The notes below the pieces were generated by a model. The model had not been told where the DNA came from, did not search any database, and saw only the letters and a program-made list of their open reading frames with translations. Made by a program: the position numbers and the translations under genes. 64,000 nt of DNA from Devosia sp. LC5 (lineage in GTDB: Bacteria > Pseudomonadota > Alphaproteobacteria > Rhizobiales > Devosiaceae): NCBI RefSeq assembly GCF_000735585.1, contig NZ_JNNO01000001.1, positions 1 through 64,000 of the forward strand, written 5' to 3'. Shown piece after piece: positions 48,130 through 60,378 of the stretch (its first letter is position 1; each line of letters begins with the position of its first letter).

Positions 48130-49031
48130 GCGCGGTTTTGACCATTTCCCGTGCCGCCCCGCTCAGCACCATCCAGGATGCGGGACGCTTCGGCATGCTG
48201 CGCCATGGCATCAGCGCATCGGGCGCCATGGACGCCGGCGCTTTCCGGCTGGCGGGTGCATTGGCTGGCGTGCAGAGCGATGGCGCCATCGAATTCACCG
48301 CTGCGGGGCTCGACATCGAAATGAGCAAGGGCCGCTGTGTTGCGGGTATGGCGGGCGGGGGCTTCAAGGCCGCGCATAACGGGACTTCATTGGCCTGGCC
48401 CGGCCGGGTCGAGCTGAAGGCGGGGGACAGACTATCCATCACGCCGGGCGATTGGGGCAATTACGGCTATCTGCGCTTTGACCGCAATTTCGATTTACCT
48501 GTTGTGATGGGGGGCCTCTCAACCAGCACGCGAGCGATGATCGGTGGCCTGGAGGGGCGGGCGCTGAAGGCAGGCGACGTACTGGCTTTGGCAGGCGTTG
48601 GCTCACCATTGAAGGACAGCGTCATAGAACCACGGCAGTATGACGGCCCTATTCGCGTGATTTGGGGCCTGCATGCGGACATGTTCACGCAGTCCCTGCG
48701 GCAGCGTTTTCTCCATGCCACTTTTGCCATTGCGCGACAGATGGACCGCATGGGCGTCCGCCTGAGCGATCCATCAGGAGTGTTTGCGGCGGCAAAAATC
48801 TTGTCTTTAGTGTCCGACGCCGTGGTGCCGGGCGATATCCAGATCATGGGCGATGGCACGCCCGTCGTCTTGATGCGTGACCATCAGCCGACCGGCGGCT
48901 ATCCGCGCATCGCGACCATTGCCAGCGTCGATCTCGACCGCTTCGCGCAGTTGCGGCCGGGCGCCCCAGTTGCTTTCCAGTCCATCAATGTGGACCATGC
49001 CCACCTATTGTTGAGGAGCGGCCAGCCATGA
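48126..49031 (+). CDS. pxpC: 5-oxoprolinase subunit C (KipA family)
   Basis: PxpC is the KipA/allophanate-hydrolase-subunit-2 partner of PxpB. The start is ATG 48126 (MSAVLTISRAAPLSTIQDAG), in a four-base overlap with pxpB; an out-of-register longer frame inside pxpB is rejected. It has 301 aa, within the range for the family. GRFGMLRHGISASGAMD and the RDHQPTGGYPRIATIASVD region near the C-terminus are typical. A PPMDxxA-like substrate motif is represented here by SGAMDAGAFR. Confidence 0.92.
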   Translation: MSAVLTISRAAPLSTIQDAGRFGMLRHGISASGAMDAGAFRLAGALAGVQSDGAIEFTAAGLDIEMSKGRCVAGMAGGGFKAAHNGTSLAWPGRVELKAGDRLSITPGDWGNYGYLRFDRNFDLPVVMGGLSTSTRAMIGGLEGRALKAGDVLALAGVGSPLKDSVIEPRQYDGPIRVIWGLHADMFTQSLRQRFLHATFAIARQMDRMGVRLSDPSGVFAAAKILSLVSDAVVPGDIQIMGDGTPVVLMRDHQPTGGYPRIATIASVDLDRFAQLRPGAPVAFQSINVDHAHLLLRSGQP

Positions 49032-49982: not shown

Positions 49983-50753
49983 CTAGATGGCCAGGTATTC
50001 GTGGCGTAGCTCGGTATTGTCCAACACCTCCTTGGCGGTGCCCGAGAAGGCGACCTCGCCGGTATCAAGGATCACTGCGCGGTCGGCCAGCTTGAGCGCC
50101 GCGACGGCGTTCTGCTCGACAATGATCGTGGTAATGCCCAGCGGCTTGATCGAATGCAGAATGCGCTCGATTTCCTGCACGATGACCGGAGCGAGACCCT
50201 CATAGGGCTCGTCGAGCAAAAGGAGCTTGAGTTCGCGCGCCAGCGCCCGGGCGATAGCGAGCATCTGCTGCTCGCCACCCGACAGCGTCACACCCTCCTG
50301 CTTGCGCCGTTCGGCAAGCCGGGGAAAACTCTGATAGATTTGCTCCAGGCTCCAGCCATTGCCTGGGGCAACCCTGGCGAGGGTAATGTTCTCCTCGACC
50401 GTGAGACCCGCAATGATGCGCCGGTCTTCGGGGACGAGCTGAATGCCCGCTCGCGCGGCCTCAAAACTCTTCATCTGGTGGATAGGCTTGCCATCCAGCC
50501 AGATTTCGCCTTGCCGCATCTGCGGATCATCGGTACGGGCGATGGTGCGCAGAGTCGAGGTCTTTCCTGCGCCATTGCGGCCCAGCAGGGCCAGGATTTC
50601 GCCTTGCCGCACATCGAGCGACACGCCTTGCACGATATAGCTCTCGCCATAATAGGCGTGCATGTCGCGCACAGAAAAGAATGGCCGCGTGGTCTCGATA
50701 CTGGCAGCCTGGCTATTGCCGAGAATTTGGGTCTCCATGGCGATTGCACTCAT
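49983..50753 (-). CDS. livF: Liv-type ABC transporter ATP-binding protein (LivF)
   Basis: The second ATPase of a branched-chain-amino-acid-type importer. Start ATG 50753 (MSAIAMETQI), overlapping the livG stop by one base; 256 aa. Walker A GRNGAGKTS, signature LSGGEQQML, Walker B LLLLDEPYEGLAP, and the switch His in IIVEQNAVAAL (here Gln-Asn rather than His, as usual for LivF). The first 25 residues are an unusual extension before FFSVRDMHAYYGES. It is the last gene of livK-H-M-G-F. Confidence 0.92.
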   Translation of the reverse strand: MSAIAMETQILGNSQAASIETTRPFFSVRDMHAYYGESYIVQGVSLDVRQGEILALLGRNGAGKTSTLRTIARTDDPQMRQGEIWLDGKPIHQMKSFEAARAGIQLVPEDRRIIAGLTVEENITLARVAPGNGWSLEQIYQSFPRLAERRKQEGVTLSGGEQQMLAIARALARELKLLLLDEPYEGLAPVIVQEIERILHSIKPLGITTIIVEQNAVAALKLADRAVILDTGEVAFSGTAKEVLDNTELRHEYLAI

Positions 50754-51517
50754 CAATGGGTGCCTCCGAGATAGGCTTCCTGCACCTTGGGATTGCCCCG
50801 CACCTGATCGGGCGTACCGTCGGCTATGATGCGGCCCTGCGCCAGCACGGAAATCTTGTCGGCCAGCGAAAACACCACATGCATGTCGTGTTCGATGATC
50901 ACCTTGGTCATGCCGCGGCTCTTGATCTTCTTGAGCAATTCGATTGTCGTATTGGTGTCGTGGCGGCTCATGCCGGCAGTTGGTTCGTCGAGCAGCAGCA
51001 GGCGAGGATGCTGGATCAGGCACATGGCCAGCTCCATCCGCCTTTTGTCGCCACGGCTGAGGCTGCCGGCGGCCATATCGCGGCTACTGGTCATGCCGAC
51101 ATCTTCCAGCATGTCCTGCGCCTCGGCGCGAATGCCGGTTTCGCTATCGAGCGCGCGCAGCATGTTGAGCTTGAACGCGCCGTCGCGCTTGGCGAGTGCC
51201 GGGATCATCACATTGTGCAACACGCTGAGATCGGAAAAAATCTCCGGCGTCTGGAACACCCGGGCAATGCCGAGCTGGTTGATCTCGTATGGCTTGCGCC
51301 CGGTCAGGATCGCACCGTCGAACACCACCGTGCCGCTGGTCGGCGCCAGCTTGCCGATGATGACATTGAGCAGGGTGGATTTACCCGCCCCATTGGGGCC
51401 GATAATGGCGTGGGTCTGGCCTTCTTCCACCTGCAGGTCGATATCGGCCAGGGCGTGAAGGCCCCCAAAGCGTTTGTGAACATCGGCAACGTGCAGAACA
51501 ACATTTGGCATGGTCAT
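50753..51517 (-). CDS. livG: Liv-type ABC transporter ATP-binding protein (LivG)
   Basis: The first ATPase of the importer, 254 aa. Walker A GPNGAGKST, Walker B LLLLDEPTAGMS, and switch His in VIIEHDMHVVFSLAD. The ABC signature reads GSLSRGDKRRMELAM, with Arg where LSGGQ-type signatures have Gly. This LSRGDKRR form also differs from the usual LivG LSYGxxRRLE. An ATG two codons further in is also possible. It lies 11 bases after livM. Confidence 0.92.
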   Translation of the reverse strand: MTMPNVVLHVADVHKRFGGLHALADIDLQVEEGQTHAIIGPNGAGKSTLLNVIIGKLAPTSGTVVFDGAILTGRKPYEINQLGIARVFQTPEIFSDLSVLHNVMIPALAKRDGAFKLNMLRALDSETGIRAEAQDMLEDVGMTSSRDMAAGSLSRGDKRRMELAMCLIQHPRLLLLDEPTAGMSRHDTNTTIELLKKIKSRGMTKVIIEHDMHVVFSLADKISVLAQGRIIADGTPDQVRGNPKVQEAYLGGTH

Positions 51518-51528
51518 CGTGTCCGGTC

Positions 51529-52668
51529 CTATTCTGCGGGCTGCACTTGGGCTGGCGTGTGCCGTGGCGTTTTGCCGGAACGGTTGAACAGGCCAACAAT
51601 GCGCCGTACGCCCTCCATGATGCCTCCGGGCAGGAAGACCACGATCAGCACGAAGACCAGGCCCAGCGTCAGGAACCAGCCTTCGCCCACGAACTTGCTG
51701 GCGATGGTGACGGCCACATGGTCGGCTCCCTCGGGCAGGAAGGCAAAGAAGCGCGTGAGGATGCTGTCATTGATGGCCGAGAAGATATTCTCGAAATATT
51801 TGATCAGCCAGGCACCGATCACCGGGCCGACAAGCGTGCCCGCGCCGCCCAGGATCGTCATCAGCACCACCTCGCCCGAGGCGGTCCACTGCATGCGCTC
51901 GGCGCCAGCCAATGGGTCGGTGATGGCCAGCAGCGCACCGGCCAGGCCCGCATACATGCCCGAAATCACGAAGGCCGCGAGCGTATAGGGCTTGGTGTTG
52001 AAGCCAGTATAGTTCATGCGCGTCTGGTTGGATTTGATGCCTTTGAGCATCATGCCAAACGGCGAACCCGTAATGCGCTGGGCAATGAAGAACGCGATGA
52101 TCAGGAAGCCGGCGCAGAAGTAAAATCCGGCATAGCCCGTGAGCGGGGCCCCAAGCAGGGTGGGCGAGGGCAGACCCGCGGGCGCTGCCGAAAATGCCCG
52201 ATCCAGATAGCGCGGATCGGCCAGGTCGAGTTGCAACCCGGTCTCGCCATTGGTGATGGGCGTCAGCACCGAATAGGCAAGATTATAGCTCATCTGCGCA
52301 AAGGCCAGCGTCAGGATGGAGAAATAGATGCCCGAACGGCGCAGGCTCACATAGCCGATCAGCAGGGCAAATATTCCCGAGACGACGATGGCAAAGGCCA
52401 TTGCGGGAATGGCGTCCATGCTCAGTAGCTTGAACGACCAGACGGCCGCATAGGAGCCAACGCCGAAAAAGGCAGCGTGACCGAAGCTCAGATAGCCGGT
52501 GAGGCCAAACAGGATGTTGAAGCCCACAGCCAGGATCGCATAGATCGTGAATCGCTGCAGCAGGTCGGGATAGGCCGCACCGAATGGCTGCAGCCAGATC
52601 GGCATGGCCAGCACGGCGATGGTGAAGCCCAGAAACAGCAGGAGGTCGTTGCGTGACATGGCGAGCAT
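51529..52668 (-). CDS. livM: Liv-type ABC transporter permease (LivM)
   Basis: A membrane permease of 379 aa with about ten TM segments. The LivM motif is present: [24 protein letters not shown], then [21 protein letters not shown] and [16 protein letters not shown] 30-residue soluble tail ends the protein ([11 protein letters not shown]). It starts one base after the livH stop, so livH-livM is tightly coupled. Substrates for this family include branched-chain amino acids, urea, amides and aromatic acids. Confidence 0.92.
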
Positions 52669-52669
52669 T

Positions 52670-53701
52670 TCAGGCCTCCATCACGCCGCGGCGGCCGAAC
52701 AGGCCACGCGGGCGAACCAGTAGAATGACCACCGCTACGAGATAGATGATGATCTGGTCGATGCCCGGAACGATGGCTTTGATCTGCGTCATCGAGGCGA
52801 AGGACTGAAGGATCCCCAGCAGGAACCCGGCGGCCACAGCGCCGGGCAGCGAGCCCATGCCACCCACCACGACCACGACAAAGCTCAGCACCAGGAAATC
52901 CATGCCGATATGGTAGTTCGGCGGCAGTAGCGGAGTGTACATCACCCCTGCCATGCCGGCGACGACCGCGGCGAGGCCGAACATGATGGTGAAGCGCCGG
53001 TCGATATTGATGCCGAGCAGCCCGACGGTTTCCCGGTCGGCCATACCAGCGCGAACCACCAGGCCGAAAGTGGTGAACTGGAGGAAAGCAAAGACGCCGC
53101 CAATGATCACCCCGGCAAAGAGGAAATACACCAGACGCCAGATCGGATAGGTGATGACATTGGCCTGCATGCCGAGCCAGGCGCCGATATCGGCCGCACC
53201 GCGCAAACCTTCAGGCATGGGCTGGGGGATCGGATTGGGGCCGAAGAACGACTTGATGATCTCCTGCGCCACGATGGCTAGGCCAAAAGTCACAAGGATT
53301 TGTTCGGCATGCGGGCGTTTGTAGAAGTGCTTGATGATGCCGCGCTCAAGCGCAATGCCGATCACCAACATGACCGGAATGGTGAGGAGGATTGAGAACG
53401 GCACCGAATAATTGACCAGCACCGCGCCGAAATCACCGAACCAGGTCTGCACCAGCGGCGCGCGCACCTCGAGTGGCGCACCCCAGGGCGACAGCTTGGT
53501 CGGATCGATGGTGACCGTTTCAAACGTGATGAGCTGACGGAACAGTACGGCGCAGAAGGCGCCCAGCATGAACAGCGCGCCATGTGCGAAATTGACGACG
53601 CCCAGCGTACCGAACACCAGCGTCAGCCCCAGCGCGATCAGGGCATAAGCGCCGCCCTTGTCCAGGCCGTTGAGGAACTGCAGAAAAATAACTTCGAACA
53701 T
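52670..53701 (-). CDS. livH: Liv-type ABC transporter permease (LivH)
   Basis: The partner permease, 343 aa with about eight TM segments. The start is ATG 53701 ([20 protein letters not shown]), with GGAG seven bases upstream. A 20-codon extension (MVRQAHHAVYW...) comes from a family B repeat and is rejected. Signatures: [24 protein letters not shown] and [22 protein letters not shown] family B repeat and a hairpin lie between it and the binding-protein gene, which may lower its expression relative to that gene. Confidence 0.93.
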
Positions 53702-53729
53702 GTTGTGCTCCGATCGAGCCTCAATCGTC

Positions 53730-53827
53730 CAGTAGACCGCATGGTGAGCCTGTCGAACCACGAGGGCGTGGCACGATGCCCGGTGGTACGCCCTCGTCCT
53801 TCGACAAGCTCAGGATGAGGTCTACTG
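53730..53827. repeat. Paired palindromic repeat (BIME-like), family B copy 3
   Basis: CAGTAGACCGCATGGTGAGC with CTGTCGAACCACGAGG is followed by CCTCGTCCTTCGACAAGCTC with AGGATGAGGTCTACTG. The ends CAGTAGACC and GGTCTACTG are perfect inverses, so the whole 98 bases are an imperfect palindrome. Confidence 0.9.
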
Positions 53828-53834
53828 GGAGAAG

Positions 53835-53858
53835 GCCCGCCCCGTTGCGGGGGCGGGC
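53835..53858 (-). terminator. Strong hairpin between livK and livH (attenuator?)
   Basis: GCCCGCCCC and GGGGCGGGC pair perfectly across a 6-base loop, right after the binding-protein stop. No T-run follows on the minus strand. Such hairpins often stabilise the abundant binding-protein mRNA. Confidence 0.55.
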
Positions 53859-53866
53859 GCAAGCAA

Positions 53867-55222
53867 TCAGCAGATCGGCGCGGGTTCCGCCGGGCCGAGA
53901 TCGCCGCCGAAGATGGCCGGATCGTAGGCCACCGCGTCGCGCGGTATTTCCTGCACGACGTTGAGCACGTCATATTCGCTGGTTGGGCTCTCATTGCCCT
54001 GCACCACAAGCACGTTCTTGATGCATTGGTGGTCTTCGGCGCGATAGAGCGTGGGGCCATTGCCCATGCCGTCGAACTCGAATCCTTCCAGCGCCTTGAT
54101 GACTTCGGGCGGATAGAAGGTGCCGGCGCGCTCGCAGGCGTCGGCGTAAAGCAGGGCCTGCACATAGGCCGTGTGGGCAGCCTGCGATGGCGGCGCACCA
54201 TAGGCGGCGCCGAACGACTTGGTGAACGCTATCGTGCCCGGATCCTGCAGGTTCCAATGCCAGTTCGAGGTGCCGTAGATGCCCTTGATATTGGCGCCGG
54301 CGCCCTTGGCCATCAATTCGGAGAACAGCGGCACGACGATCTCGAAATTCTTACCATTGGTCTGGCGATCGCGCATGCCGAACTGCACGGCCTGGGTCAG
54401 TGAATTGACCATGTCGTTGCCGTAGTGGTTGAGGATCAGCACGTCGGCGCCCGAATTCAGCACAGGCGTGAGGAATTGCGAGAAGTCGCCCGCACCAAGC
54501 GGTGTGCGTACGGCCTGAACCGTCTCCCAGCCAAGCTCTTCGGTCGCCGCTTTCATCGACTCTTCCTGGGTCCAGCCCCAGGTGTAGTCGGCCGTCAGGT
54601 GATAGGCCCTGCGGTCGGCGCCATAGGCTTTGACAATGGCTGGGGCCAAGCCGATACCGGACTGGTAGGCGTTGAAGAAGTGGCGGAAGCCGTAGCGCTT
54701 CTTGTCCTTGCCGGTGGTATCGTTGGAATGGGTCAGGCCCGCCATGAAGATGACGCCCATTTCCTGGCACAGGCCCTGCACGGCTACGGCTTCGGCCGAG
54801 GACGACCCGCCCGAAACCATGATGGCGCCGTCGCGTTCGATCATGCGGGTGGCGCCGGCGCGGGCCACGTCGGCTTTGGTCTGGCTGTCCGAGGTCACGA
54901 ATGCGACCTTCTTGCCCAGCACACCATTGCCCTTGAGCGCGGTGGGCGTAAGCACGCTGATCAACCCGCCATCGCCCTCGCCATTGAGATGCTGGATGGC
55001 CAATTGATAGGCCTTTTGCTCATCGGCGCCTTCTTCGGCATAGGCACCGGTCAGTGGCAGGTTGAGCCCGAATGTGACGGTGTCGCCGGTCGGATTATTG
55101 CAAAACTCCTGCGCCCAGGCGCCACGACTAAGAATTAGCGGCGCCACGCCGGTCGCGAGAATACCGGCCAGGCCGGTTTGCAGCACACGGCGACGGCTGG
55201 GACCGCGCTTGAAAACTGTCAT
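53867..55222 (-). CDS. Liv-type ABC transporter substrate-binding protein with Tat-like signal
   Basis: The periplasmic binding protein of the importer. The start is ATG 55222 (MTVFKRGPSRRRVLQTGLAG), with GAGGAGG six bases upstream; 30 upstream codons are excluded. It has 451 aa, a type I periplasmic-binding fold of the Peripla_BP_6 kind (TVTFGLNLPLTGAYAEEGAD). Its signal contains SRRRVLQ (residues 9-15) followed by a hydrophobic stretch ending GAWAQE, a good twin-arginine signal. Folded export would suit a protein with early disulfides (EFCNNP, GLCQEM, ADACERAG). The ligand cannot be read from sequence; the convergent 5-oxoprolinase operon makes an oxoproline- or amide-like ligand conceivable. 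Confidence 0.88.
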   Translation of the reverse strand: MTVFKRGPSRRRVLQTGLAGILATGVAPLILSRGAWAQEFCNNPTGDTVTFGLNLPLTGAYAEEGADEQKAYQLAIQHLNGEGDGGLISVLTPTALKGNGVLGKKVAFVTSDSQTKADVARAGATRMIERDGAIMVSGGSSSAEAVAVQGLCQEMGVIFMAGLTHSNDTTGKDKKRYGFRHFFNAYQSGIGLAPAIVKAYGADRRAYHLTADYTWGWTQEESMKAATEELGWETVQAVRTPLGAGDFSQFLTPVLNSGADVLILNHYGNDMVNSLTQAVQFGMRDRQTNGKNFEIVVPLFSELMAKGAGANIKGIYGTSNWHWNLQDPGTIAFTKSFGAAYGAPPSQAAHTAYVQALLYADACERAGTFYPPEVIKALEGFEFDGMGNGPTLYRAEDHQCIKNVLVVQGNESPTSEYDVLNVVQEIPRDAVAYDPAIFGGDLGPAEPAPIC

Positions 55223-55345
55223 CGATTTCCTCCTCATTGGCGCGGGGCAATTGGTGCATAGCCAATTACTCGCCGCATTAGGAGTATTTGCCTTCACTGC
55301 AAACGATGGCAATACAGCATTGTAATCGCAGCAACATCCTGTAAA

Positions 55346-55372
55346 TTATTGCACTTATCTGGCGCAACAATA
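55346..55372. promoter_or_regulatory. Imperfect dyad in the liv / XRE divergent region
   Basis: TTATTGC (55346-55352) and GCAACAATA (55364-55372) form an imperfect inverted repeat with a TTGC/GCAA core. RamB-type regulators bind TTGCAAA-like sequences, so this is a candidate operator for the adjacent XRE protein. The match is weak. Confidence 0.25.
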
Positions 55373-55412: not shown

Positions 55413-57032
55413 ATGCGCGCGCCAATTGGCTTTCGCATCAGCAGCCGCCGGAAATCGTTGAGGATTTCGCAGGCGGCGCTGGCGCGGTTGATCGGCATTT
55501 CGCCGAGCTATCTCAACCTGATCGAAAACAACAAGCGCGACATCGGCGGGGCGCTGCTCAACCGCGTTGCGCAGCATCTGCACATCGATATCGACGAGCT
55601 GGCCGGCCGTGCAGAGCAAAAGCTGTTGCAGGACCTTGAGGAGGCCTTTGCCGATCCGATGCTTGAGTCGCTGCCCTTCCGCCCGGACGAGCGCCGCGAA
55701 CTGGTGGCGCAATACCCAGCCAGCGGCGCTGCATTGGCGCGTATGCACCGCGCCTATATTAGCGCGCAACTCAGCGCCGATGCCTATGCCGATCGCCTGC
55801 GCTCGGACCCATTGTTGTCGCAGTTCCTGCACCAGATCCTCTCCGGCGTAACCGCCATCCGCTCCAGCGCCGAAATCCTGGTCGATGTGCCTGATCTGGG
55901 CGAGGCCGAGCGCCGGCAATTCCTTTCCGCCATTGGCCGCGAAACCCTGGCATTGACCGATGTGGCCCGCAATCTGATCGGCCAATTCGACATCGCCCGC
56001 CGCGATAGCCGGGATATTTCCCCGGCACGCGAGATCGACGATCTGCTGATCGAGCAGAACAATTATTTCCCCGAACTCGAGACGGCTGCAGACTCCTTGC
56101 GCAGCGAGATCGAACGAGCCGGCCCCTTTGGCATGGCCACGCTGACCCATTTGCTGGCAGAACGGTTCGGCATCACCGTGAATATCGGCGGCGCCGCGCC
56201 GGAAGGCTTTCCGGGTCAATACCGGTTCGATGGCGAGCAGCGCGTCATGTGGCTGCAAGGCTCGACCAAGCTCGCGACGCGCCAATTCCAGCTGGCCCGG
56301 CTGTTTGGCGAACTCGCGGCGCCGGACGTGATTGCCCAGCAGCTCATGAACGCGCGGCTTTCATCCCCGGTCGCGCAACGGCTCGCATCCCGCGCCTTGG
56401 GCTCTTACTTGGCCGGTGCGATGATCCTGCCCTATCGCCGGTTCCGCGACCACGCCGAAGCAGCGGCCTATGACATCGATCACCTCTGCCAGATCTACCA
56501 CGCCAGCTACGAGCAGGTGGCCCAGCGGCTGGTGACATTGCGGCGGCCGGGCGAGGAGGGGGTGCCCTTCGGCTTCCTGCGATCGGACCCTGCCGGGCGG
56601 CTCACCAAGCACTTTCCGCTGCCCGGCCTGTTGCTGCCCAATAGCGGGCATGCCTGCCCGCTCTGGGCCATCTATGGTGCCTTCCGCACGCCGGAGACGC
56701 CCGTGCGGCAAGTGGTCCGCTTTTCCGACGGTTCCCGCTATCTGTTCATCGCGCGGACGGTGCAACGCCGTACGGCCTCATTCCGCGAGCAAGCGCCGAC
56801 CGCCTCGATCATGCTGGCCTGCGACGTGCTGCATGCTGACCGCACCATCTATGGCTCGGGTCTCGATCTCTCCGACACATCCTCGGACGTGCCGGTAGGG
56901 CCAAGCTGCCGGCTGTGCACGCGGCGCGACTGCCCGAGCCGCCAGGAAGAGGCGCTTTCGCCCACTGGGACGAATGGAGAAATCCGCGCCCCGCTGTTGC
57001 CCGCTGGTTTTCAGCTTGGCGATTCCGCATGA
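55413..57032 (+). CDS. XRE regulator of the RamB/ScfR type with an inserted DHp-like segment
   Basis: A 539-aa transcription regulator. Start ATG 55413 (MRAPIGFRIS), with GGAGG eight bases upstream. Residues about 5-65 are an XRE helix-turn-helix (LRISQAALARLIGISPSYLN). Residues about 240-360 look like the IrrE/M78 region, but the protease HExxH is missing (FQLARLFGELAA). The C-terminal part has the Cys cluster SCRLCTRRDCPSR typical of the short-chain fatty acyl regulators (DUF2083). Between them, residues 132-192 align without gaps to the DHp domain of the kinase encoded 2.7 kb downstream: 23 of 61 identical by eye, His140 on the phospho-acceptor position. A receiver gene follows 55 bases later. 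It is divergent from the liv operon. Confidence 0.85.
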   Translation: MRAPIGFRISSRRKSLRISQAALARLIGISPSYLNLIENNKRDIGGALLNRVAQHLHIDIDELAGRAEQKLLQDLEEAFADPMLESLPFRPDERRELVAQYPASGAALARMHRAYISAQLSADAYADRLRSDPLLSQFLHQILSGVTAIRSSAEILVDVPDLGEAERRQFLSAIGRETLALTDVARNLIGQFDIARRDSRDISPAREIDDLLIEQNNYFPELETAADSLRSEIERAGPFGMATLTHLLAERFGITVNIGGAAPEGFPGQYRFDGEQRVMWLQGSTKLATRQFQLARLFGELAAPDVIAQQLMNARLSSPVAQRLASRALGSYLAGAMILPYRRFRDHAEAAAYDIDHLCQIYHASYEQVAQRLVTLRRPGEEGVPFGFLRSDPAGRLTKHFPLPGLLLPNSGHACPLWAIYGAFRTPETPVRQVVRFSDGSRYLFIARTVQRRTASFREQAPTASIMLACDVLHADRTIYGSGLDLSDTSSDVPVGPSCRLCTRRDCPSRQEEALSPTGTNGEIRAPLLPAGFQLGDSA

Positions 57033-57087: not shown

Positions 57088-57471
57088 TTGGCGATCGACA
57101 TACTTATTGCCGAGGACGAGCCGAGCATTCTTGAATCGCTCGATTTCATTCTTCGGCGAGCTGGCTGGACCATCAGCTCGGTCACTGACGGCGCAGCGGT
57201 GCTTGAAGGCGTACGCCGGCTGCAACCGCGTGTACTGGTGCTTGATGTGATGCTGCCCAAGCGCAGTGGCTTCGACGTACTCAAGACCATCCGCGCCAGC
57301 GCTGATACGCGGCTATTGCCAGTGCTGATCCTGACGGCCAAAGGCCAGCAGCAGGATAAGCGCATTGCCGAGGAGCTGGGGGCCAACGAATTCGTCACCA
57401 AGCCCTATGCCAATGCCGACGTTGTTGGGGCCGTGCGGCGCCTGCTGGGCGATCATGGCCGAGCGCCGTAA
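57088..57471 (+). CDS. Stand-alone response-regulator receiver protein
   Basis: A single-domain receiver of 127 aa without output domain. It starts at TTG 57088, preceded by AGGGGGA. The acidic pocket is IAEDEPS (Glu9, Asp10), the phospho-acceptor Asp53 lies in VLVLDVMLP, Thr83 in ILTAKG and Lys105 in FVTKPY, so all catalytic residues are present. It precedes a histidine kinase in the same operon and is presumably its partner. With no DNA-binding domain, the signal must go to another protein; the upstream XRE regulator is the obvious candidate. Confidence 0.92.
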   Translation: MAIDILIAEDEPSILESLDFILRRAGWTISSVTDGAAVLEGVRRLQPRVLVLDVMLPKRSGFDVLKTIRASADTRLLPVLILTAKGQQQDKRIAEELGANEFVTKPYANADVVGAVRRLLGDHGRAP

Positions 57472-57682
57472 GCTCGAAGCCGCCATGCTGGCGCTGACGG
57501 TGTTCGGCACACTGCTGATCGTGCCGCCCTTGGCGTATATTTTCAGCCAGCCGATCAGCCATTTCGGCGTGCCGCAGGTCGTCATTTATCTCTTTGCCTG
57601 GTGGGCGTTGATCATTACCGCTACCGTACTACTGACCCATTGGATGCCGCGCGATAGCGCCGATAATGGGGAGAGCGAATAA
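57455..57682 (+). CDS. Small two-TM membrane protein beside the SSS-kinase
   Basis: A 75-aa protein starting at ATG 57455 (MAERRKLEAAMLAL), overlapping the receiver gene by 17 bases and the kinase start by one base (TAATG). It has two TM segments (about 10-30 and 38-60) and a short charged tail (DSADNGESE). Small two-TM proteins (DUF485, DUF4212) accompany several sodium:solute symporters such as ActP; this one fits in size and position though I cannot assign it to either family. Confidence 0.75.
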   Translation: MAERRKLEAAMLALTVFGTLLIVPPLAYIFSQPISHFGVPQVVIYLFAWWALIITATVLLTHWMPRDSADNGESE

Positions 57683-60378
57683 TGCTCTCGGCCGATTTCG
57701 TGATCGCCACGGCCGTCGCCTATGTGGGCCTGCTGTTCGTGCTGGCCTATTTTGGCGATCGGCGGGCGCGCGAGCGGAAGAAGTCATTCCTGCATTCCCC
57801 TGCGGTCTATACGCTCTCGATATCGGTCTATTGCACCAGCTGGACCTTCTATGGCGCGGTCGGCAATGCAGCGCGCAGCGGCCTCGAATTCCTGACCATT
57901 TATCTGGGTCCCACCATCGTCTTTGTCGGCTGGTATTTGGTGCTGCGGCGCCTCGTGCGTATCAGCCATCTCCAGCGCATCACCTCCGTCGCCGATCTGC
58001 TGTCCTCCCGTTTCGGCAAGTCGAGCCGTTTGGCCGTGCTGGTCACCTGCATCGCGGTGATCGGCATTGCCCCTTATATAGCGCTACAGCTCAAGGCGGT
58101 GACCTCATCGATCCAGGCCGTCGCCGGCGCCTCCGAGTTCGGGCAGGGGAGCCTTGCCGGCATTGATGATGTGGGCCTGGCGCTTGGTGTCGCAGCGGCC
58201 ATGGCGCTGTTCACCATTCTGTTCGGCACGCGACATGTCGACGCCAAGGAGCAGCATCACGGGGTGGTGGCTGCCATCGCCTTCGAGGCGGTGGTGAAGC
58301 TGGCGGCGCTCGTGGCCGTCGGCGTGTTCGTGGTGTTCATCGGCGGCGGTTTCGAGGCGATTTTTCGCAATGCCGCGGCGCGTGGTTTCACCCTCGACGT
58401 CGAAAACACCTTCGATGACCGCTGGCTGACCACGCTGGGTCTCTCCATTGCGGCCATCGTCTGCCTGCCGCGCCAGTTCCAGGTGACGGTGGTCGAAAAT
58501 TCCGACGAAGACCATCTCCGCGTCGCCGGTTGGGCCTTTCCCGCTTATATGATGCTGATGAGCATCTTCATCCTGCCCATAGCGCTTTATGGGCTGACAA
58601 CGATGCCAGCCGGCGCCAATCCCGATATGTTCGCGCTGACCCTGCCCATGGCGGCCGGTCAGAGTGGGCTGGCGCTGTTCGCCTTCATTGGCGGCTTTTC
58701 GTCGGCCACCTCCATGATCATCCTGGAGTCCATCGCACTCTCGATCATGGTCTCCAACCACATCGTCATGCCCCTCGTGCTGCGGTTCACGCCCAGCGGG
58801 CGGGACGGGCAGGGGGTCAGCCACCTGCTGCTGGTGGCGCGGCGGTTTTCCATCGTACTCATCCTCTCGCTTGGGTTTTTCTATTTCTTCTTCACCCGCG
58901 ATTCCAACGCGTTGGCCCCAATCGGCCTCATCTCCTTCACCGCCATTGCGCAATTTTTCCCCGCCGTTCTGGCCGCTCTGTTCTGGCGTGATGCCTCGCT
59001 CAAGGCGGCAACGGCCGCGATTGCGGCGGGCTTCGTCATCTGGGTGTGGAGCAGCTTCCTGCCCTCGTTCGAATCCGTCTCGCCACAAGTAGCCGAATTG
59101 TTACGCGATGGCCCTTGGGGCATTTCCTGGCTGCGGCCCGAGGCAATGTTCGGGTTGGACGGCCTAGACCCGCTCGCCCACGCGGCGTTCTGGAGCCTTT
59201 CGATCAACACGTTCACCCTGATTGTCGGGTCGTTGCTGACCAGCCAATCCACACTCGAACGCATCCAGGCCAATGTGTTTGTCGACGTGTTCCGCCGCGG
59301 CAATATCGCGCCACGCAATTTCATGCGCGGTGTGGCGACCGCCAACGACCTCTATTTCGTCGCCGAGCGTGTATTGGGTGAACGCCGTGCTGCGGCGCTA
59401 TTCGAAACTGCGGCGCGCGAAAGCGGCGTGTCCCCCGCCATGCTCAATCCATCGCCCGAATTTATCGGGCGGCTCGAGCGCGAACTGGCCGGCTCGATTG
59501 GGGCGGCATCGGCCCATGTCATGCTGTCGAAGGTAGTTGCCGGCGCCGAGGTGTCGCTGGAAGAGGTCATGCAGATGGCCGACGAAACCCAGCAGGTCAT
59601 CGAATATTCCCAGCAATTGGAGAAAACCTCGGCTGAGCTGCGTTCCACCGCCCAGCAGCTCGAAGATGCCAACGCCCAGCTCCGCGTACTCGATAGTCAG
59701 AAGGACGACTTTTTGAGCCAGGTGAGCCACGAAGTGCGCACGCCGATGACCTCGATCCGTTCGTTCTCGGAAATCCTGCTCGACCAGGGTGAACTGGACG
59801 AGCAGCAGCGGCACCGGTTCGTGTCGACGATCCACCAGGAAAGCCTGCGCTTGACCCGGCTGCTCGACGAAATCCTCGATCTGAATGCACTGGAACGCGG
59901 GGAGCGGACTTGGGAAAACGTGCCCACCGATGCCGAGGCCGCGTTGGAACGGGCGCTGTCGGTTTGCGACGCGCTCCTGCGCCAGCGCGGCATGCGCGTG
60001 GAGTTCGGCAGCCGGGCACGGGCTGGCATGGTGGATGGCGACGGCGACCGGCTATGCCAGGTGTTCATCAACATCATTTCCAACGCCGTGAAATATAACG
60101 ATGCGGAAGAGCCGTTGTTACGGGTGAGTTCCTCCGTCCGCGCCGGTTTCTATGGGGTGGAAATCGCCGACAATGGCCCGGGTATTGGCAAGGCCGAGCG
60201 CAGTCTGATCTTTGAAAAATTCTCGCGCGGCCAGCACGGCTCGGCCGATCAGAGCGGGGCTGGGCTGGGGTTGGCCATCAGCCGGCAGATCGTGGCGCGC
60301 ATGAATGGCTCGCTGGACCTGGTCGCCGGGCCGCTGCCCGGCGCCTGTTTCCGGGTGCGGCTGGCCGTTTTGCGCTAG
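57682..60378 (+). CDS. Sodium:solute symporter-STAC-histidine kinase fusion (CrbS-like)
   Basis: An 898-aa sensor kinase. Residues 1 to about 520 form an SSS transporter-like domain with some 13 TM segments (SISVYCTSWTFYGAVGNAAR near the start). A STAC-like helical domain follows at about 555-625 (ANDLYFVAERVLGERRAAAL). Then a coiled coil leads to the DHp domain, with His683 in SHEVRTPMTSI, and the ATPase domain with N-box NIISNAVKY, G1 IADNGPGIG, F-box FEKFSRG and G2 GLGLAISRQ. There is no PAS and no receiver. CrbS proteins of this design sense acetate and control acetate use with CrbR; the ligand here is inference. The convergent K+ channel gene ends four bases away. Confidence 0.93.
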   Translation: MLSADFVIATAVAYVGLLFVLAYFGDRRARERKKSFLHSPAVYTLSISVYCTSWTFYGAVGNAARSGLEFLTIYLGPTIVFVGWYLVLRRLVRISHLQRITSVADLLSSRFGKSSRLAVLVTCIAVIGIAPYIALQLKAVTSSIQAVAGASEFGQGSLAGIDDVGLALGVAAAMALFTILFGTRHVDAKEQHHGVVAAIAFEAVVKLAALVAVGVFVVFIGGGFEAIFRNAAARGFTLDVENTFDDRWLTTLGLSIAAIVCLPRQFQVTVVENSDEDHLRVAGWAFPAYMMLMSIFILPIALYGLTTMPAGANPDMFALTLPMAAGQSGLALFAFIGGFSSATSMIILESIALSIMVSNHIVMPLVLRFTPSGRDGQGVSHLLLVARRFSIVLILSLGFFYFFFTRDSNALAPIGLISFTAIAQFFPAVLAALFWRDASLKAATAAIAAGFVIWVWSSFLPSFESVSPQVAELLRDGPWGISWLRPEAMFGLDGLDPLAHAAFWSLSINTFTLIVGSLLTSQSTLERIQANVFVDVFRRGNIAPRNFMRGVATANDLYFVAERVLGERRAAALFETAARESGVSPAMLNPSPEFIGRLERELAGSIGAASAHVMLSKVVAGAEVSLEEVMQMADETQQVIEYSQQLEKTSAELRSTAQQLEDANAQLRVLDSQKDDFLSQVSHEVRTPMTSIRSFSEILLDQGELDEQQRHRFVSTIHQESLRLTRLLDEILDLNALERGERTWENVPTDAEAALERALSVCDALLRQRGMRVEFGSRARAGMVDGDGDRLCQVFINIISNAVKYNDAEEPLLRVSSSVRAGFYGVEIADNGPGIGKAERSLIFEKFSRGQHGSADQSGAGLGLAISRQIVARMNGSLDLVAGPLPGACFRVRLAVLR

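Follow-up and report, generated by a model that had tools for sequence, protein, structure and literature searches.

The window, i.e., the 64,000-nucleotide stretch of the Devosia sp. LC5 genome analyzed here, carries on its forward strand a run of four genes that begins at position 55413 with a transcriptional regulator and continues with a receiver, a small membrane protein and a sensor kinase, in that order (Table 1). The regulator contains a segment resembling the dimerization and histidine phosphotransfer (DHp) domain of the kinase encoded three genes downstream.

Table 1. Genes and features at the regulator–kinase locus, with positions counted over the whole window.
Feature	Coordinates	Strand	Basis
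DHp-bearing ScfR-type XRE regulator, 539 aa	55413..57032	+	Matches to HTH_3, Peptidase_M78 and ScfRs (PF09856, E 5.5e-44)
HTH DNA-binding domain, regulator residues 11-63	55443..55601	+	PF01381, E 2.9e-11
Putatively captured DHp (HisKA-like) hairpin, regulator residues 132-192	55806..55988	+	Profile comparison, HisKA scans, tree, predicted fold
His140 codon of the regulator, opposite kinase phospho-acceptor His683	55830..55832	+	His in 88/98 aligned sequences
M78/IrrE-like region, regulator residues 249-373	56157..56531	+	PF06114, E 4.1e-7; Foldseek matches to PrpR and IrrE
ScfRs C-terminal domain, regulator residues 375-515, C-X2-C-X4-C (C499, C502, C507)	56535..56957	+	PF09856
Single-domain receiver, 127 aa, without output domain; Asp53	57088..57471	+	PF00072, E 6.6e-24
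Small hydrophobic membrane protein, ~65 aa, in the receiver-kinase gap	57485..57682	+	phmmer matches in orthologous loci
SLC5-type (CbrA-like) sensor histidine kinase, 898 aa, no receiver of its own	57682..60378	+	HisKA and HATPase_c
Kinase DHp segment, residues 675-735, His683	59704..59886	+	HisKA match; alignment to the regulator
TGTAAAT, candidate operator 5' of the regulator	55340..55346	+	Motif recurrence in upstream regions
Divergent ABC uptake operon, urea/branched-chain type	49983..55312	-	UrtA-E model matches, all below cut-off

The regulator belongs to the ScfR group. It has the HTH domain, its PF09856 match scores 150.2 bits against a cut-off of 24, and C499, C502 and C507, which form the cysteine cluster motif, are each conserved in at least 90% of the aligned orthologs. 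It shares the XRE-type HTH, the M78-like region and the C-terminal C-X2-C-X4-C domain with ScfR, RamB, PccR and PrpR (PF09856), and PrpR was its top fold match (E 6e-26). With the RamB equivalog model NF038139, however, it reached only 314.7 bits vs. the curated 700. PrpR lacks a DHp: when the flanking blocks are aligned, 9 residues lie between them in PrpR vs. 71 in the window regulator, and therefore the hairpin looks like an insertion. A Pfam scan of the regulator found no HATPase_c domain at E <= 1, and residues 204-511 align instead to PrpR. Among 40 regulator loci compared, the closest was from a Rhizobiales isolate (95% identity), with Devosia species at no more than 93%; nearly all of the others were Devosia.

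Regulator residues 132-192 and kinase residues 675-735 align over 61 positions without a gap, with 23 identities and with His140 opposite His683, exactly as the sequence-only reading had described. The best ungapped BLOSUM62 score of the segment against the whole kinase is 103, vs. a maximum of 43 in 3000 shuffles, and a search of the LC5 genome with the regulator returned only itself and the adjoining kinase (E 1.2e-7) at E <= 0.001. The HisKA profile search proposed in the sequence-only reading is significant at the family level but not for the window sequence alone, which stays under the Pfam cut-off (PF00512, 14.9-15.3 bits vs. 26.9; E 0.02-0.03). A profile of SLC5-kinase DHps matches the window regulator at E 1.9e-11, and comparing 86 regulator segments with 72 kinase DHps in hhalign gave a probability of 99.6% (E 3.6e-24), compared with at most 2.2% in ten null controls (one reversed, five column-shuffled and four with other segments). 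HisKA scans of six whole orthologs exceeded the cut-off in three (L159, 38.7 bits; L164, 33.7; L166, 31.9) and fell below it in the others (L074, L253 and L230, 13.2-17.7), while 34 of 41 regulator segments matched HisKA at E <= 0.1, the best at 5.3e-11. Because the family profiles decide, with the Pfam score of the window regulator alone staying below the cut-off, we consider the homology of the regulator segment to SLC5-kinase DHps firm at the level of sequence profiles, and the earlier proposal of a kinase-derived DHp within the regulator is borne out. Chance helical similarity was excluded by the shuffles and the ten hhalign controls.

The homology was not taken to extend upstream of the segment: BLAST had carried the alignment over residues 65-131, but the helical regions there do not match (hhalign of the regulator coil against the kinase coil, 0.2%). 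A search of the PDB with the segment profile found HK853 at E 8e-6. Protein A entries also appeared in the list (E 1.6e-6 to 2e-4) with no single stretch passing alone, and these matches were taken as chance hits.

The predicted fold agrees with the two-helix hairpin anticipated from the sequence. Helices at residues 133-158 and 164-196 form such a hairpin in the model of the full protein (mean pLDDT 87.2), and the same hairpin appears when the segment is modeled in isolation (pLDDT 88.5). The best structural relatives of the DHp model are from the HK853-RR468 system: in a Foldseek search, HK853 structures took ranks 1-13 with TMq 0.61-0.72, but at an E of only 0.02-0.1, and no match to the DHp model reached E 0.001. 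In a second fold comparison, HK853 scored Z 10.0 and unrelated hairpins reached 9.6. A score of this kind does not tell one helical hairpin from another, and therefore the fold match counts only together with the sequence. Unlike HK853, the regulator has no CA domain and lacks the acid at H+1, the Arg at H+3 and the Pro at H+5 (numbered from the phospho-acceptor His).

The source of the segment appears to lie among the SLC5 kinases. When the regulator-segment profile was run over the loci of the 25 HisKA matches in the LC5 genome, the adjoining kinase scored 61.9 bits and the next match 17.9. A tree of 90 DHps grouped all 33 regulator segments in one clade (support 96/97), placed beside the SLC5-kinase DHp of locus L161 (83/63) and among those of other SLC5 kinases. 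The earliest branches within the regulator clade were L159, L161, L164 and L166, and these early-branching regulators include the most canonical H-boxes (HELRTF in L159 and HELLTL in L164). The tree rests on 62 columns, its bootstrap was not fully settled and its root was chosen for drawing only, so that the deep forks are rough. We read this pattern as a single, ancient event in which the DHp of an SLC5 kinase was captured, probably followed by decay of the kinase residues. The sequence-only reading had instead envisaged a local duplication of the DHp of the adjoining kinase; the regulator DHps speak against it, as they make up a single old clade with members in many families of the class. 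A recent duplication within Devosia was likewise ruled out by the tree, within the limits just given.

The DHp-bearing regulator occurs in many families of the Alphaproteobacteria. Among 397 genomes of the order, 33 had full-length matches (E <= 1e-90), as did 31 of 385 genomes of the class, one of the 31 matches being cut by a contig end. In a sample of 398 genomes of the phylum, full-length matches occurred inside the class only (6 genomes), and the 8 matching genomes outside it had short forms only, with the caveat that this threshold misses shortened regulators, as seen within the class. The short ScfRs found in the genome searches match the regulator only from about residue 180-215 on. 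An orthologous kinase (E <= 1e-200) is present in 53 of the 385 class genomes, including 30 of the 31 with the long form, the exception being a genome that is 68% complete; the co-occurrence gives a Fisher p of 4e-29 (385 genomes, uncorrected for descent). A full-length match is missing from 23 kinase genomes; 20 of these were examined, and 12 have an adjoining DHp regulator whose ScfR part is shortened or diverged, while 8 have none. At least 42 of the 53 kinase genomes thus have a DHp regulator.

At 109 DHp-regulator loci, a receiver lies within 1 kb on the same strand in 90, a kinase within 4 kb in 89, and both in 86; at the remaining 23, one or the other is not nearby, and 6 of these 23 are repeats of genomes already counted. 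The 109 loci include 40 that are Devosia or near by origin (L003-L036, L038 and L075-L079) and six repeat genomes (L250-L253, L259 and L261). Dropped from the set were four short forms (L188, L189, L040 and L041), a fragment (L037) and a regulator split into two frames (L075/G010). Split frames were seen in this regulator (L075:5343-6979) and in two kinases (L004:8059-10673 and L078:7656-10482), from either frameshift or assembly error. In one family (f74; L234, L237, L238 and L239), the DHp regulators are open frames of 434-483 aa with the ScfR part shortened or diverged; the DHp is here better kept than the putative acyl-CoA part.

The receiver between regulator and kinase has its phosphorylation residues intact (D53 in 80 and K105 in 79 of 80 aligned receivers), and its C-terminal tail does not exceed 26 aa at 116 of 117 loci, leaving no output domain. 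The simplest reading of such a receiver is that the regulator is its output, by way of a DHp resembling the kinase DHp. Its start codon in the window is TTG (57088), and Leu is the translated residue at position 1 in 44 of the 80 aligned receivers; this rare start may be conserved in Devosia. The small membrane protein gave phmmer matches (E < 1e-3) in 95 of 124 loci, 93 of which have the kinase, and it is placed before the kinase as cbrX is described to lie before cbrA (PMC6591292). In the kinase, an SLC5 transporter domain is joined to the kinase part: residues 8-465 match PDB 10ed, entitled 'histidine kinase' (E 2.2e-66), and although Pfam SSF gave no match in the window kinase, it was over the cut-off in the ortholog at L257.

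We consider it probable, from the homology to the SLC5-kinase DHp, the kept receiver-facing residues, the lack of an output domain in the receiver, the co-occurrence of the genes and the precedent of DivL, that the ScfR-type regulator is the missing output of this two-component system, with the phosphorylated receiver docking on its DHp and altering DNA binding. In such a scheme, the kinase would sense an external substrate, likely acetate or another short carboxylate, and phosphorylate the receiver. Once phosphorylated, the receiver would dock on the regulator dimer, at the four-helix bundle formed by its DHps, in the way expected of it on the kinase, and would thereby change binding of the regulator at TGTAAA sites before its own gene and before the divergent uptake operon. 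Acyl-CoA, acting on the C-terminal ScfR part, would gate the regulator as in PrpR; family resemblance is what suggests this second input, and some orthologs in which the ScfR part is shortened and the DHp retained count against it. The DHp of the regulator should not be an autokinase, because there is no ATPase domain and no H+1 acid. It does keep the His, which serves phosphotransfer, and an S/T/N at H+4, which serves dephosphorylation of a receiver, so that docking may end in loss of phosphate from the receiver. The 23 of 109 loci in which receiver or kinase is not close by speak against the scheme.

The 23/61 identity with the partner DHp could also mean that the kinase itself acts on the regulator, either by phosphorylating His140 or by entering mixed DHp dimers. 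We regard this as highly improbable: the kinase has a transporter-type membrane part, the residues at the end of helix 2 differ, and the receiver would be left without a role.

The residues kept and lost in the regulator DHp bear on how docking would work. Counts were made over 98 aligned long-form sequences, window included, and over a second set of 65 without most Devosia. The phospho-acceptor His is present in 88 of 98 (56 of 65), the others having Q (4), F (4), L (1) or Y (1). An acid at H+1 remains in 8 sequences of either set, Arg at H+3 in 6/98 and Pro at H+5 in none of either set, and the window regulator itself has Gln at H+1 and Gly at H+5. The sequence-only reading, which listed E, R/T and P of the kinase H-box as changed, was right about E, R and P and about the loss of autokinase residues. 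On the T at H+4 that listing was too strong, as the residue is replaced by Ser (S144), still within the S/T/N class found in 95/98 (62 of 65), with Ser in 54/98 including the window.

On helix 1, T at +7 (82/98), R at +10 (90/98; 57 of 65), S at +11 (92/98; 59), E at +14 (92/98; 59) and I at +15 (97/98; 64) are retained. In our own alignment, offsets +8, +11 and +15 correspond to A268, A271 and T275 of HK853, which, to judge by PDB titles, were changed in rewired-interface structures. Kinase offsets +42 to +50 are mostly near-fixed (T +42, L +44, D +46, L +49, D +50), but the regulators do not keep them. The part of helix 1 predicted to face the receiver is kept, and other kinase features are lost. 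The conserved His argues for chemistry at this site, while its recurrent substitution suggests that docking by itself can be enough.

One form of such chemistry is a phosphorelay, in which the phosphoryl group moves from the receiver to His140, switching the regulator to its active or its inactive form. Receiver-to-His transfer is known from Spo0B and ChpT, here it would take place inside a transcription factor, and acceptance of phosphate from a receiver needs no ATPase domain. The His has also been retained in 88/98 although neighboring residues have changed. However, the H+1 acid and H+5 Pro are lost, and the ten sequences with Q, F, Y or L in place of the His all retain the R-S-x-x-E-I-L surface at least in part, so that the His, conserved across orthologs as the earlier reading expected, is gone in several lineages that keep the rest. 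Three His-less Q/L variants (L073, L175 and L010) even have receiver and kinase adjoining the regulator. We consider a phosphorelay rather unlikely. The F and Y variants (L160, L162, L163, L165 and L167) seemed unlinked at first look, but the four F genomes have receiver and kinase about 7.5-8 kb away. The idea that His loss marks loss of the partners was therefore abandoned, as there is no clean correlation.

A different possibility is feedback, the regulator DHp dephosphorylating the receiver according to acyl-CoA state so that metabolism resets the sensor. This would fit an S/T/N at H+4 in 95/98 with the H+1 acid lost, as in HisKA proteins the H+1 acid is described as needed for kinase activity only and the H+4 T/N for phosphatase activity (PMC3510030). 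However, Ser, the H+4 residue in more than half of the regulators, does not figure among the substitutions in the part of that study considered here, and the receiver would then need another output, of which none is seen in the window operon. We judge feedback dephosphorylation unlikely.

In 66 pairs of regulator DHp and receiver, covariation was not significant, random sets being as high in 7% of cases at the specificity positions and in 9% over the wider interface; the kinase control was strong at the specificity positions (0/2000) but not over the wider set (19%), so that the test has little power. Identity between the regulator DHp and its own kinase exceeded that of permuted pairs over all positions (40 pairs, 0/2000), which shared descent could explain, and the enrichment at the five HK853 positions was borderline (random sets as high in 5.3%).

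DHp domains dimerize, and with the hairpin predicted at good confidence, the segment could be a borrowed dimerization hairpin and nothing else. Short ScfRs, however, work without a DHp, and mere dimerization leaves unexplained both the kept His and receiver-facing residues and the linkage to receiver and kinase in 86/109 loci; we find it very unlikely.

Docking of the receiver on the regulator DHp, the reading we prefer, has a precedent in Caulobacter, where the DHp of DivL, with its kinase function lost, has been proposed to read the phosphorylated receiver DivK (PMC4211667). DivL would be a precedent for a DHp protein as receiver sensor, although it retains both its PAS and its CA domains and has a different kinase pathway as its target, whereas the regulator DHp sits in a DNA-binding protein without a CA domain. 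ScfR-type regulators and SLC5 kinases are already known, separately. On the regulator side, PrpR is described to bind CoA derivatives and an iron-sulfur cluster (PMC6765138), and in Paracoccus denitrificans the ScfR-network gene Pden_1785 lies beside a two-component system but is not among the genes studied in the portion of that report drawn on here (PMC10370305). On the kinase side, the CrbS/CrbR, CbrA/CbrB and RpuS/RpuR SLC5/STAC systems, whose described substrates include acetate, histidine and pyruvate (PMC9100948), share the SLC5-type sensor kinase with the window locus. CrbS and RpuS of Sinorhizobium fredii are presented there as hybrid kinases with LuxR-type regulators (PMC9100948); the window system differs in that its kinase carries no fused receiver, its separate receiver lacks an output domain and the apparent output is the DHp-bearing ScfR. 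Among the open-licence PubMed Central papers listed by literature searches, no title or abstract opening named a DHp in an ScfR or XRE regulator; an earlier mention is possible.

To our knowledge, single-domain receivers without an output domain are common, and many have no known effector. The conserved gene set offers a concrete candidate effector for one of them, in the form of a kinase docking surface transplanted into a transcription factor. The class-wide retention of the DHp in a metabolic regulator suggests that a sensor pathway plugs directly into it. If so, domain capture would be a route for wiring signaling pathways with kinase-like specificity built in, and Alphaproteobacteria would have gained a regulator potentially able to integrate input from the transporter-sensor with acyl-CoA status. 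More tentatively, as a possibility we would not put ahead of its negation, the transcription factor may be a direct two-component target through a DHp captured from the system's own kinase, the receiver's phosphate being passed to it or removed by it, so that external (kinase) and internal (acyl-CoA) signals meet in one molecule; another captured output, a PAS/DHp-like pseudo-kinase fused to a DEDDh exonuclease, may belong to the same receiver lineage.

A candidate binding site for the regulator is suggested by its upstream regions. Of 97 regions 5' of the regulator, 91 have TGTAAA on the coding strand, against a mean of 6.8 and a maximum of 15 in shuffled sequence; 41 regions have at least two copies, and 60 of the 63 diverse regions have the motif. 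It is strand-biased, with favored spacings of 32, 8, 42 and 31 bases. Between positions 49001 and 62500 of the window, the only TGTAAAT lies in the divergent promoter region. The known RamB-type motif, which we take to be TTTGCAAA, was found in 3 of 45 upstream regions (shuffled mean 0.18), above chance but rare. Of the 56 loci compared, 38 have a gene for a UrtB-like permease and 11 have one for acetate-CoA ligase nearby, a few genomes contributing two loci; the proteins of the divergent ABC operon fall below the urea-specific cut-offs of the UrtA-E models. By position and motif, the divergent operon is a likely target of the regulator. From the position of TGTAAA and the UrtB-like and acetate-CoA ligase neighbors, we infer that the regulator controls both its own gene and the uptake operon, the cue being acetate or some other short carboxylate.

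Eight of the kinase loci examined lack a DHp regulator, and in six of them a gene of one family lies between the receiver and the SLC5 kinase (L242:4224-6263, L246:8936-10900, L241, L244, L245 and L247), with partial relatives at L159, L161 and L164. Pfam assigned a PAS fold and an RNase_T/DEDDh exonuclease domain to the L242 and L246 genes, with HisKA below the cut-off in L246. The regulator-DHp profile matches the genes at L241, L242, L244 and L246, with Glu at the place of the His in three by eye, and this PAS/exonuclease gene is possibly a second kinase-derived output of the same receiver.
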